From: an uncultured Pantoea sp. | GTDB lineage: Bacteria; Pseudomonadota; Gammaproteobacteria; Enterobacterales; Enterobacteriaceae | Length of the DNA stretch: 64,000 nt | Reading direction: 5' to 3' | NCBI GenBank assembly: GCA_913778495.1 | Contig: CAJYVD010000018.1 | Location: 1-64,000 of the forward strand | Part shown: in pieces, positions 36,227 to 41,990 of the stretch | How the letters are laid out: the number at the start of each line of letters is the position of its first letter | How positions within the stretch are numbered: position 1 is the stretch's first letter | The notes under the pieces: generated by a model | The model's database searches: none | Seen by the model: the letters and a program-made list of their open reading frames with translations, nothing else | What the model was told of the DNA's origin: nothing | Position numbers and translations under genes: made by a program

Positions 36227-36250
36227 GCCCACTCCGGTGGGCTTTTTTTT
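36227..36250 (+). terminator. Terminator after int, part of the left control module
   Basis: A 6-bp stem GCCCAC / GTGGGC around TCCG followed by eight T. A near-identical hairpin heads the mirror-image module at 41968-41990. Confidence 0.85.
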
Positions 36251-36474
36251 GTCCCGAAATAGACTTTTTGGGGACGCTTTTTCTCTCCTAAATCTCCTTA
36301 AAAAACTTTCGGAAAAACAAGCGATTGGGTGATTATCGCTGTCCCGAAACTACACGTTTGCGAGACGACTAACTCATTGATTTTCAAGGAAAAATTAGGC
36401 TAATAGTGCTGGAACTTACCGGCATTGTGTAGCAATAATTAAACCTCGGACGATGAGAAAACGAGGTATTCGGT
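36251..36474 (+). promoter_or_regulatory. Left copy of the island's duplicated control module (upstream of the replication operon)
   Basis: Two dyads are seen: 36251-36275 (GTCCCGAAA, 7 nt, TTTGGGGAC) and 36341-36366 (GTCCCGAAAC ... GTTTGCGAGAC). They lie 224 and 134 bp before the ATG at 36475. Just before that start is ACCTCG (36443-36448) and CGAGGT (36462-36467), the latter holding the Shine-Dalgarno. The same parts at nearly the same spacings lie before trbJ in inverse orientation. The dyads look like operators. The last stem could be an operator or an RNA hairpin that hides the ribosome-binding site. Confidence 0.75.
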
Positions 36475-36705
36475 ATGGAAAGACAATTAAGGAAATCGAG
36501 TAAAGTTCTCATAAGCAAAAAGCAACTACTGGAGATGATTCCACTGTGCGAGCGCACGATCTACAACTTTGAAAAGCAGGGAAAATTCCCTCTGCGCATC
36601 GCACTTAGTAGTCGAAAGGTCGTGTGGGATTTAGCCGAGGTCGAGGCATGGATTGATGCATGCAAACATTCCGGCTCGGCCCCTCGTCCCGGAATGGGGG
36701 CCTGA
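36475..36705 (+). CDS. AlpA-like helix-turn-helix regulator
   Basis: A 76-residue basic protein with a MerR-like HTH of the AlpA/excisionase class (LISKKQLLEMIPLCERTIYNF ... LRIALSSRKVVWDLAEVEAWID). Such proteins often act as activators or directionality factors of P4-type integrases. It is the first gene of the replication operon and follows the duplicated control module, so it is a candidate for binding it. Four bases separate its stop from the repA start. Confidence 0.75.
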   Translation: MERQLRKSSKVLISKKQLLEMIPLCERTIYNFEKQGKFPLRIALSSRKVVWDLAEVEAWIDACKHSGSAPRPGMGA

Positions 36706-36708
36706 ATT

Positions 36709-37575
36709 GTGGCGATTGACTTACGGGCAGCGTTCGAGAACGAACCGCCCGCACTAGACTTTATTTGGCCGGGCTTTCTTGCTGGGACGGTAGGCGCGTT
36801 GGTGGCTCCCGGAGCCACGGGTAAGAGCTTCTGGGCGCTGGAAGCGGCAATGGCCATCGCGTGCAGCGCTGCCGGTGGCGATCTTGTAGGCCTTGCCCCC
36901 GCGTGCACTGGCCGCGTGGTCTATTTCGCTGGAGAAGATCCGGAAGTCGCACTGGTGCGCCGTATTCATGCCATCGGTCAGCACCTGAATCAGCAGGCCC
37001 GTGAAAACATCGCCGAGAACCTGACAATCAAGCCAGTCATGGGTACGCTCATGAACGTCTTAGATGACGCTCAACGCGCTGCCCTAATCAAATTCTGTTC
37101 CGGCGCTCGACTGATCGTACTAGATACACTGAGCCGGATTCATGACCGCGACGAGAACAGCAATGGCGACATGGCCAAGCTTGTCGCCACGCTGGAGCAC
37201 ATTGCAGCGCGTACCGGGGCCTCTGTTCTTTACCTGCATCACGTTAGCAAAGGTAGCGCTCGTGAGGGGCAAACGGATCAACAACAGGCCGCAAGAGGCG
37301 CATCCGCCCTAATCGACAATGCCCGCTGGTGCGGCTTCGTCGCAAAGATGACCGAGGACGAGGCCAAGAGCCTAAGCGACCGCGCCTATGACCGTCAGCC
37401 CATCGGCAAAGACCGGCGCGGCTTCTTTGTTCGTTTTGGTGTTAGCAAGCAGAATTACGACGCTACTCCGCATGACCAATGGTATCAACGCCGCGACGGC
37501 GGCGTTTTGCTGCCGGTGGAGCTATTGGACGCCAAGCAGGACAGCGGAAAGGGGCGTCAGCGTGAGCAAGCATGA
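36709..37575 (+). CDS. repA: IncQ-type replicative helicase RepA
   Basis: A 288-residue RecA-fold helicase strongly resembling RSF1010 RepA (279). Walker A is APGATGKSFWALE; Walker B is LIVLDTLSRIHD. The blocks FAGEDPEVALVRRIHAIG and RRGFFVRFGVSKQNYDA are shared with RSF1010. It uses a GTG start. In IncQ plasmids RepA is the hexameric helicase opening oriV. It overlaps repC by 14 bp. Finding it in a chromosomal island suggests the excised circle can replicate. Confidence 0.9.
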   Translation: MAIDLRAAFENEPPALDFIWPGFLAGTVGALVAPGATGKSFWALEAAMAIACSAAGGDLVGLAPACTGRVVYFAGEDPEVALVRRIHAIGQHLNQQARENIAENLTIKPVMGTLMNVLDDAQRAALIKFCSGARLIVLDTLSRIHDRDENSNGDMAKLVATLEHIAARTGASVLYLHHVSKGSAREGQTDQQQAARGASALIDNARWCGFVAKMTEDEAKSLSDRAYDRQPIGKDRRGFFVRFGVSKQNYDATPHDQWYQRRDGGVLLPVELLDAKQDSGKGRQREQA

Positions 37576-38461
37576 CTTGACTCACGCCCGGCACGACCCG
37601 GTGCATTGTCTAGCACCCGGCCTGTTCCGTAGCCTCAAACGTGGCGAACGAAAGCATAGCAAGCTTGACGTTGCATATGACTACGGCAATGGCAAGCGTA
37701 TCGAGTTTAGTGGGCCGGAACCGCTTGGGGCTGACGATCTCCGCATCCTGCAAGGATTGGTAGCAATGGCTGGGCCTTCTGGCCTTATGCTTTCTCCCGA
37801 TCCTCAGACAGAAGCCGGTAGGCAGCTCCGGCTATTTCTCGAACCCAAATGGGAAGCCGTCCAGCAGAATGCGATGGTGGTCAAGGGTAGCTATCGGTCG
37901 CTAGCCCGTGAGGTTGGCTATGCGGATATCGACAATACTAGGCCAGTACGCGATTGCATTGAGAGGCTCTGGAAAGTCTCTATCATTGCGCAAAACGATA
38001 GGAAGCGGCAGGGCTTCCGTTTGCTGTCCGAGTACGCAAGTGATGAGCAGGACGGCAAGCTGTACGTGGCATTGAACCCCCTTATTGCTCGCGCAATCAT
38101 GGGCGGGCAGCACATCCGCATAGATATGGCCGAAGTTAGGAAACTACGGACCGACCCCGCCCGCTTGATTCACCAACGACTGTGCGGCTGGATTGACCTC
38201 GGTAAGTCGGGGCGGATACAGCTAGACACGCTATGCGGCTATGTTTGGCCGGATGAACCGACGAACCCGAATACCGTCAAAAAACGCCGACAGACGGCAC
38301 GCAAGGCGCTGGCCGAGCTTGCTGCCGTGGGTTGGAGGGTAGGCGAGTATGCTAAGGGCAAATGGGAAATCGGGCGACCCAAGGCATCCGACTGTAACGC
38401 TGCTGCCCCCTGTTTAACGGCACCCCACCCCCTGTTTAACAGTACCCAATCCCCTGTTTGA
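37562..38461 (+). CDS. repC: IncQ-type replication initiator RepC
   Basis: A 299-residue protein very like RSF1010 RepC: HARHDPVHCLAPGLFRSLKR, FSGPEPLGADDLRILQGLVA and KRQGFRLLSEYASDE are nearly shared. The GTG start at 37562 is chosen from that match and lies inside the repA end. RepC binds oriV iterons. The C-terminal end (PCLTAPHPLFNSTQSPV) is encoded by the iteron-like repeats themselves. No IncQ primase (RepB/MobA) gene is present in the island. Confidence 0.9.
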   Translation: MSKHDLTHARHDPVHCLAPGLFRSLKRGERKHSKLDVAYDYGNGKRIEFSGPEPLGADDLRILQGLVAMAGPSGLMLSPDPQTEAGRQLRLFLEPKWEAVQQNAMVVKGSYRSLAREVGYADIDNTRPVRDCIERLWKVSIIAQNDRKRQGFRLLSEYASDEQDGKLYVALNPLIARAIMGGQHIRIDMAEVRKLRTDPARLIHQRLCGWIDLGKSGRIQLDTLCGYVWPDEPTNPNTVKKRRQTARKALAELAAVGWRVGEYAKGKWEIGRPKASDCNAAAPCLTAPHPLFNSTQSPV

Positions 38462-40946: not shown

Positions 40947-40948
40947 TC

Positions 40949-41743
40949 TCAGTACTCCTTAACGCCGCCGCGTGTGTTTTTGCGGGCTTCAAACTGCTGT
41001 TCGGTGGCTTCGCTCGCAGCCTTCCTGTCGCCTTGCTGAGCCATGTAATTGCCCTGCATGTTGATTTGCGTGGCCAGCAGGTCGCGCAGCTTTTGCAATT
41101 GCTGCACGTTTTGCCCGGCAATTTCATTGCCCGCCTGAATCGCCTGCATACGACCAACGGCCGACTGCGAACGAGCCACCATGCGGTCTAGCTGGGCATC
41201 CTCGGACTCGAAGGTGCTGGTATTGAAGTTCGCCGCTTCCATCGCCGTTTTTACGTTGTCGCGGCCCTGTTGCGACCACTTTTGATAGCGATCCTGCGCC
41301 GGGGCCTCTGCCGAATTAGCTGCTTGATTTAGGTAGTATTCGAAGCCCGGAAAAACTGTGTTGAACTGCGAATCCATGTTCTGGATTTGGCGGCCCAACG
41401 CCTGCGAGCGGTTGTAGATGTTGACGACGCTTTTCAAGTCAGACGCGATGCTGCTGAACATTGAATCGGGCAACCCTGTGCCTTGCGTGACCATATTTTG
41501 GTATTGCTGAATCTGCGTTTGCAATTGCTCGGCGGTGTTCAGCGCTGTGTTGACCTGCTCGGCGTACTCGAACATCTGTTGATAGAACGTCGAGCAGTTA
41601 GAGCAGTAGATGGCGTAAGCCGGTACAGGTGTCATGTAGAGACCTACGCCGAAGCCTGTAGTTGCCATTGCCACAGCTAGTGCCGCACCTCGGCGAAATA
41701 TCCGGGCGGTAAAAGCTGACGTACTTTGCGATTCTTTTTCCAT
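40949..41743 (-). CDS. trbJ: TrbJ/VirB5-type pilus-associated protein
   Basis: A 264-residue exported protein: signal peptide ending PVPAYA, then a helical, Gln-rich mature part (CSNCSTFYQQMFEYAEQVNT ...), as in TrbJ/VirB5, the minor pilus component thought to sit at the pilus tip and affect recipient contact. It is the first gene of the minus-strand operon and follows the right copy of the control module. The C-terminus FEARKNTRGGVKEY recurs in the next protein. Confidence 0.8.
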   Translation of the reverse strand: MEKESQSTSAFTARIFRRGAALAVAMATTGFGVGLYMTPVPAYAIYCSNCSTFYQQMFEYAEQVNTALNTAEQLQTQIQQYQNMVTQGTGLPDSMFSSIASDLKSVVNIYNRSQALGRQIQNMDSQFNTVFPGFEYYLNQAANSAEAPAQDRYQKWSQQGRDNVKTAMEAANFNTSTFESEDAQLDRMVARSQSAVGRMQAIQAGNEIAGQNVQQLQKLRDLLATQINMQGNYMAQQGDRKAASEATEQQFEARKNTRGGVKEY

Positions 41744-41966
41744 ATCGAATACCTCGTTTCGTCGTCGTCCGAGGTTCGATTATTGCCGCATTTCCCGATG
41801 ACCTCTAGGGTTTGTGGCTTCTTTTTTCAATAGAAACAGAGACTTACTGTTCCCGCAAACGTCGTATTTCGGGACGAAAGTAGACGCTTAAGTACCTGTT
41901 TTAAAGTATGTTCTTAGAAGAGTTTTGAGGGGGAGGATAGTGTCCCGAAAACGTCTGTTTCGGGAC
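41744..41966 (-). promoter_or_regulatory. Right copy of the duplicated control module (upstream of trbJ)
   Basis: Read on the minus strand it repeats the left module: dyads at 41942-41966 (GTCCCGAAA, 7 nt, TTTCGGGAC, perfect) and 41849-41875. They start 223 and 132 bp before the ATG at 41743. The stem ACCTCG / CGAGGT lies at 41770-41775 and 41751-41756. About 30 of the last 38 bases before the start agree with the left copy, including CCTCGGACGA and AACGAGGTATTCG. Confidence 0.75.
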
Positions 41967-41967
41967 A

Positions 41968-41990
41968 AAAAAATGCCCACCGAAGTGGGC
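41968..41990 (-). terminator. Terminator at the head of the right control module
   Basis: GCCCAC-TTCG-GTGGGC on the minus strand followed by seven T. It ends the minus-strand gene at 42014 and mirrors the hairpin at 36227-36250. Confidence 0.8.

Follow-up and report, generated by a model that had tools for sequence, protein, structure and literature searches.

How might an integrated mobile element bring two operons of unrelated genes under one signal? This question is raised by a 64,000-nt stretch of DNA from an uncultured Pantoea sp. (contig CAJYVD010000018.1 of assembly GCA_913778495.1, positions 1 to 64,000; hereafter the window), which carries an element integrated at guaA. Its alpA-repA-repC and trbJ-trbL operons are each preceded by a copy of the same control module, the two copies lying in inverted orientation (Table 1). 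Sequence evidence gives good support to the view that the two dyads of this module, O1 and O2, are half-sites of a small serine resolvase encoded by plasmids of the pSN1216-29/pMBUI2 group, which are candidate helpers for transfer of the element. An earlier note on this DNA, made by reading the sequence, had described a module of about 250 bp in two inverted copies, and this is borne out by an inverted-repeat search of the window, in which the arms 36223-36278 and 41939-41994 are 88% identical and the arms 36432-36487 and 41731-41786 are 86% identical. When positions 36180-36520 were searched against the genome of the window, they matched themselves and 41731-41994 on the minus strand and nothing else, the two copies being 70% identical over 265 bp (E 6.9e-23). 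The four parts named in that note, namely a terminator-like hairpin, the two dyads and a leader hairpin over the Shine-Dalgarno sequence, are all present in both copies. Their spacings are nearly equal, as had been claimed, while the distances to the start codon are 1-3 nt off from the figures given then.

The left copy was matched in 65 of 5,426 complete E. coli genomes, at 129 places (median two per genome) and never on a plasmid, and both copies are present in all 11 of the E. coli islands examined from these genomes (L006, L007 and L009-L017). guaA is annotated beside the integrase in 10 of the 11; in L010, prophage genes are found there. Scanning one genome per species for the module pattern gave 47 stretches, 28 of them unrecognised by the module profile and 19 with the module, the latter from 13 genomes of alpha-, beta- and gammaproteobacteria. 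The search of other islands for the dyad beside replication and trbJ genes, which the earlier note had suggested, thus yielded 45 copies with those of the window, from 31 stretches in 25 genomes, 24 before alpA and 21 before trbJ. The sequences compared are related, so that counts of copies, here as in the binder analyses and matrix tests below, are not counts of independent events. The left module had no match in 72,556 plasmids, only its own genome and two matches of 27-31 bp among 99 related genomes, and viral contigs gave two pattern matches, neither recognised by the module profile. In L012, L013, L014, L016 and L017 the gene after alpA is annotated as replication initiator protein A and not as the RepA helicase, with module and alpA retained. 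GIsul2 (L067) and a Vibrio plasmid (L068) carry alpA and have no such dyads near alpA or trbJ, which suggests that the wider family can live without this control.

Within the 12 islands formed by the 11 from E. coli and that of the window, left-right identity is highest in the terminator (0.93) and the leader (0.90), intermediate in O1 (0.65) and O2 (0.52), and lowest in the O1-O2 spacer (0.38), the upstream flank (0.42) and the segment from O2 to the promoter (0.48). The likeness continues over the first 13 nt of coding sequence (0.76), a feature absent from the earlier note. O1 is 27, 28 or 29 bp long and lies about 91 bp from O2; in 43 of 45 copies, 117-121 bp separate the start of O1 from the end of O2, and 63-66 bp the end of O2 from the motif CAATAAT, the count omitting L061 (cut at a contig end) and L063 (O2 not placed). 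Copies in related islands therefore do not differ freely, since parts and spacing are kept while spacers drift, and the module itself has been retained before unrelated operons, as was first proposed. Mean identity, measured with a gap-tolerant aligner, is 82.4% for pairs of left copies, 91.8% for pairs of right copies and 78.3% for left-right pairs. Exchange by gene conversion was considered and rejected, left-right identity within 14 islands (76-82%) being like that between islands, and inversion of the segment between the modules was likewise set aside, as no exchanged flanks were seen in the islands read.

The motif CAATAAT occurs in all 45 copies, although the scan pattern required it for 20 of these. 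By promoter scoring with hexamer frequencies, AATAAT is the -10 box of the top-ranked promoter in 28 of the 45 copies and of one of the top four in 43, with the window's right copy as one of the two exceptions; the -35 boxes are weak. Just after O2, the element TAA-N4-TTGATT fits the consensus of integration host factor (IHF) exactly in 18 of 23 left copies, while its right counterpart has one mismatch in 18 of 21 copies and two in the other three, the window's included. An exact match has a frequency of 0.004 in a shuffled stretch, the copies compared being related, and the element may be an IHF-type site or, equally, a -35 box. All 19 distinct leaders show pairing at the 4-bp core of the hairpin, with a single case of change on both sides and several G-U pairs, GAGG having been fixed by the scan pattern, and the folding energy of the hairpin is slightly below that of shuffled sequences (z -1.3 and -1.4). 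L006 (20700-20817) and most right modules, the window's not among them, carry between their O2 and -10 box an extra inverted repeat, ATGCGGATA..TATCCGCAT.

Relatives of TrbJ at 71% sit in MOBP plasmids of about 35 kb. When a matrix made from 70 distinct island half-sites (consensus ACGTTTTACGGACA) was applied to one candidate helper, pNORD58_7 (L008), its four best matches fell within one 89-bp stretch; this cluster has six matches of at least 8 bits, and 200 shuffles give at most four. The cluster, located both by this matrix and by a CGGACA direct repeat, is the promoter of an operon containing a small serine resolvase gene. In L008 a strict dyad pattern has no match, and the TGTCCCGAAA motif by itself shows no enrichment. 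The region is matched by 36 of 72,556 plasmid records, two of them in part only, and the group has been described as the pSN1216-29 family with its relative pMBUI2 (PMC6232296). Aligned members show a dyad of about 28 bp, then a second box with the promoter through it (in L076, TTGCAG, 17 bp, TAGAAT) and a half-site direct repeat over +1, and the operon behind these sites holds the small serine recombinase gene. The arrangement is that of Tn3-type res sites, which a promoter crosses and a resolvase operon follows; their boxes consist of inverted half-sites, with the promoter over box II and box III beside the start (PMC12217951). Two other binders were dropped: a TrbA-like (XRE) helper regulator, whose helix region is much alike in the five sequences compared and shows no division according to site type, and a 112-aa protein encoded behind the helper sites, since in two other genomes a resolvase gene itself directly follows the sites. 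Pieces of the plasmid resolvase-site region are also found beside qacEdelta1/sul1 (L074, 3001-3111; L075, 3001-3043), in keeping with the insertion of integrons near res sites.

The association was examined out of sample in 369 genomes, 12 of which gave 15 resolvase loci. At the two loci whose resolvase has a VREAA..TALY helix, the best matrix matches lie no more than about 120 bp ahead of the resolvase start, with scores of 16.3 and 15.0 bits at one and 16.1, 14.7, 13.9 and 11.1 bits at the other; the strongest nearby matches among the other 13 loci are those of L100 (13.5 and 11.5 bits) and L094 (10.6). Conversely, a matrix of 35 half-sites from plasmid and chromosomal resolvase sites, with no island sequence in it, gave 35 matches of at least 11 bits in 6 of the 12 islands, 27 of them within the two modules. 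Four of the eight others belong to L012 and L013, where they form a third site, a direct repeat next to the replication gene. It follows directly on the terminator of the 'replication initiator A' gene (L012, 9192-9216; L013, 9197-9221) and is likewise seen in L014, L016, L017 and L061.

Half-sites of the plasmids end in either CGGACA (L008, L070, L078) or GGGACA (L077, L079, L080, L085, L086), and the C-terminal helix of the resolvase reads VREAAAA.KVGKTALY[ED]AL in the former and V[KG]EAAAAL.VGRSTLYRAL in the latter. Site type and helix agree in all eight plasmids and, with the two chromosomal loci, in 10 of 10 loci read; the count leaves out plasmids L074-L076, whose resolvase was not fetched, and the Serratia plasmid L084 entered no comparison. 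pMBUI2 (L078) belongs to the replicon cluster of four GGGACA plasmids, yet has both the CGGACA site and the corresponding helix. Where the earlier note knew of no described regulator for the module, the matrix and helix evidence now names a candidate, the small serine resolvase of the helper. Among the 31 island stretches a TraJ was detected in 19, and only that of the window is close to pE and p20-20P3 (94-97%; others 58-68%). Its oriT-side sequence with traJ is also 94.8% identical to p20-20P3, which like pE is a GGGACA plasmid. The right module of the window is the sole one of C-type among 21, and no further C-type right module was found among 394 genomes of the order and 398 of the phylum. 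The helper-like traJ and the unique type of the right module fit a matching of island and helper, though they count as a single event.

What would resolvase sites do in front of these operons? The simplest common signal would be a DNA-binding protein brought by the helper, with sites ahead of both promoters. Our preferred reading, in which belief and doubt are about evenly balanced, is that the twin promoter modules read the helper-encoded resolvase, which would occupy O1 and O2 and switch on both operons. Each copy would then be a promoter cassette made of a terminator, two resolvase-type operators, a bend or -35 element, a weak promoter and a leader hairpin. The left terminator would stop int transcripts and insulate the module, and the leader hairpin over the ribosome site would hold basal translation low. 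Such a module would sense the presence of a helper conjugative plasmid, as the resolvase would be present along with the helper, and occupancy of O1 and O2 would activate both promoters together. Activation, as opposed to repression, is inferred because O1 and O2 lie upstream of a weak promoter. The joint output would be AlpA (probably for excision), RepA and RepC (replication) and TrbJ, TrbK and TrbL (replacement mating-pore parts), most likely the very functions that the island needs while the helper is present, namely excision, replication and reshaping of the mating pore. Reshaping of the helper's pore by these Trb proteins has been proposed for the IncP island family in a review (PMC5704250). 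The earlier suggestion that replication and transfer are switched together on excision or on entry of a helper stands in its second half, with the resolvase-site matches pointing to the helper as the likely signal, whereas nothing was found linking the module to an excision trigger. More tentatively, and with somewhat more doubt than belief, the helper resolvase may be the island's transcriptional on-signal for excision, replication and mating-pore replacement at once, acting through duplicated enhancer-like modules whose two site types address different helper lineages.

Several observations, however, weigh against activation by a helper resolvase. In the helper the sites overlap the -35 box, the spacer and +1, for which reason the resolvase should repress at its own promoter. 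We know of no resolvase that activates transcription, and the O1/O2 spacing differs from that of res sites. The top score in L008 (18.7) lies within the shuffle range (up to 19.5), so only the clustering stands out, and in the window alone the converse matrix gives three matches, each in an O1 box, where shuffled sequences give 1.25 on average and at most 5. A strict pairing of island and helper type is opposed by mixed site types: in 5 of the 14 islands with both copies in one stretch the left module is C-type and the right one G-type (L006, L009, L010, L011 and L043), and adding six two-stretch genomes makes this 6 of 20, the sixth case being L039/L018; L049 is mixed inside its left copy. 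No such helper was found in the genome of the window, an assembly in 41 contigs, whose one PF00239 resolvase is of another kind.

The placement of the helper sites over their promoter is also what recommends the opposite sign for the same binder, whereby the resolvase would repress both operons and allow brief expression after entry of island or helper, before it accumulates. Many right copies have a possible promoter (TTGACG-17-AATCAT) through O2, as repression would have it. Left copies, however, have no well-scoring promoter through O2, the sites lie upstream of the promoter common to all copies, and without a helper nothing would restrain excision and replication, so that we consider repression unlikely. 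A recombination or upkeep role, in which the helper resolvase would resolve multimers of the excised island or form cointegrates between island and helper, would account directly for half-sites that are those of a resolvase; moreover, SGI1 has its own res system (PMC12217951) and parS mimics that use helper ParB (PMC10954446). Such a role is harder to square with two inverted copies per island, each with only two boxes about 91 bp apart, with O1 lengths of 27, 28 or 29 bp where the core site has 28 bp (PMC12217951), and with sites kept as a unit with terminator, promoter and leader. Nor have module flanks been exchanged in any island read, and we regard a purely recombinational function as quite improbable.

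An island protein could, on the other hand, coordinate both operons alone by binding O1 and O2, and AlpA is the obvious choice, as its gene is the first behind the left module and matches a DNA-binding family. Half-sites 11 bp apart in direct repeat do occur, and direct repeats are bound by some excisionases. The same half-sites, however, precede resolvase genes in two genomes that were fetched for the resolvase alone, AlpA is nearly identical in islands with C-type and G-type left sites, and GIsul2 and the Vibrio plasmid have alpA without the dyads; control by AlpA is, to our mind, poorly credible. Least plausible, to the point of being almost negligible, is an old duplication of an ordinary promoter with no shared trans-acting factor. 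The copies are about 30% different and the left O2 of the window is degenerate, as such a history would predict, but drift has brought the spacers down to 0.38-0.48 and has spared half-sites, leader and spacing.

Is there precedent for switching by a helper resolvase? SGI1 reportedly responds to its IncC helper through AcaCD-responsive promoters. It also carries two parS-like mimics that bind helper ParB (PMC10954446), and these are a precedent for an island reading a maintenance protein of its helper. The window's type of island resembles SGI1 as a mobilizable island that would read helper DNA-binding proteins, here judged by sequence match only, and differs in that the candidate signal is a serine resolvase with sites inside duplicated promoter modules. 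Tn3-type res sites consist, like the island modules, of resolvase half-sites, and they share their layout with the helper cluster. The res layout, with a 28-bp core box, box II 4-7 helical turns away and box III beyond (PMC12217951), is not that of the modules, which have an O1 of 27-29 bp, a second box about 8.7 turns off and upstream of the shared promoter, and no third box seen; no resolvase gene was found in the window. CUP elements, the ArdK operators of IncN plasmids, are a repeated upstream control sequence under one regulator (PMC6289460). They are alike in placing a conserved control sequence before several genes, a comparison made by description and not by sequence, and unlike in being located on the plasmid that encodes the regulator. 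A literature search, thin in subscription journals, found nothing on this module or on helper sensing by guaA-type IncP islands. The present analysis names a helper group, a protein and exact sites, all of which are testable. If the proposal is true, a plasmid's own maintenance recombinase also serves to rouse a genomic parasite, beside the AcaCD and ParB/parS routes of SGI1, and the signal would be hard for the helper to lose, since the resolvase is part of its upkeep.

Judged by its genes, the window element is a member of the 'IncP island' kind of integrative mobilizable elements. IncP islands have been described with the guaA site, RepA/RepC, TrbJ/TrbK/TrbL, TraJ, TraK and a MobP relaxase (PMC5704250), and the available text of that review does not mention a control module. 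The window has an integrase beside the 3' end of guaA, IncQ-like RepA and RepC, and a trbJ-trbK-trbL set without the remaining mating-pore genes, features in common with the IncP island/GIsul2 family. The sole further strong mating-pore match in its genome is a TrbE, 46% identical, on a different contig. PF03432 has no match in the whole genome, so that no MobP relaxase of its own was found, and this marks the element, on gene content, as a relaxase-less relative of IncP islands. Among the 11 E. coli stretches, traI is annotated in six, four carry other genes there and one ends before that place. The right end of the island was looked for and not found.

Table 1. Features of the two module copies and of neighbouring genes in the window
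Feature	Position	Strand	Basis or remark
GuaA	33093-34673		NF000848, 830 bits; GuaB likewise upstream
Tyrosine integrase adjoining 3' end of guaA	34982-36190		PF00589
Left module copy	36227-36480	+	precedes alpA-repA-repC
Left terminator-like hairpin GCCCAC..GTGGGC with T-run	36227-36249 (hairpin 36227-36242)	+	sequence
Left O1 (first dyad), TGTCC-N17-GGACG, C-type resolvase half-sites	36250-36276	+	match of resolvase-only matrix
Left O2 (second dyad), degenerate, TGTCCCGAAAC..GTTTGCGAGACG	36340-36367	+	13.8 bits, island matrix
Conserved element TAACTCATTGATT (TAA-N4-TTGATT)	36370-36382	+	fits IHF consensus, or -35 box
Left likely -10 box AATAAT, weak -35 (TGGAAC, 18 bp)	36434-36439	+	promoter scoring
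Left leader hairpin ACCTCG..CGAGGT over Shine-Dalgarno of alpA	36443-36467	+	sequence, folding
alpA, first gene behind left module	36475-36705	+	PF05930
repA-type helicase (AAA_25)	36709-37575	+	PF13481
repC, IncQ type	37388-38461	+	PF06504; match from residue 61, hence true start further in
trbL	39175-40755	-	PF04610
62-aa open reading frame (ORF) in trbK position	40758-40946	-	no NCBIfam match
trbJ, first gene behind right module	40949-41743	-	TIGR02780
Right module copy	41735-41990	-	precedes trbJ, 62-aa ORF in trbK position, trbL
Right leader hairpin ACCTCG/CGAGGT over Shine-Dalgarno of trbJ	41751-41775	-	sequence, folding
Right likely -10 box AATAAT	41779-41784	-	outside four best-scoring promoters of right copy
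Right counterpart of TAA-N4-TTGATT element	41834-41846	-	two mismatches
Right O2, dyad CGTCCCGAAAT..GTTTGCGGGAAC	41849-41876	-	sequence
Right O1, perfect dyad TGTCCCGAAACAGACGTTTTCGGGACA, C-type	41941-41967	-	two best window matches of resolvase-only matrix
Right terminator-like hairpin with T-run	41967-41990 (hairpin 41975-41990)	-	sequence; behind 74-aa ORF 42014-42238
oriT-side sequence and traJ/nikA	42802-43359	+	PF21983; 95.9% identical to plasmid pE

Behind traJ, at the place of traI in related islands, the window (43377-48491) has a PIN-domain ORF, a CoiA-like ORF and a 911-aa helicase with DUF2726, which are possibly defence cargo. The right module is preceded (42014-42450) by the 74-aa ORF, without family match, and a short TraC-like ORF, and all 11 E. 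coli islands have a hypothetical ORF of equal size and a TraC family ORF at that place. The 3' end of repC (38400-38475) carries CCCCTGTTTAACAGTACCC-type repeats, possible iterons of the island's replication origin. A terminator-like CTAAGCCCGC..GCGGGCTTTTT occurs twice, near the integrase (34719-34745) and between the CoiA-like and helicase ORFs (45558-45584).

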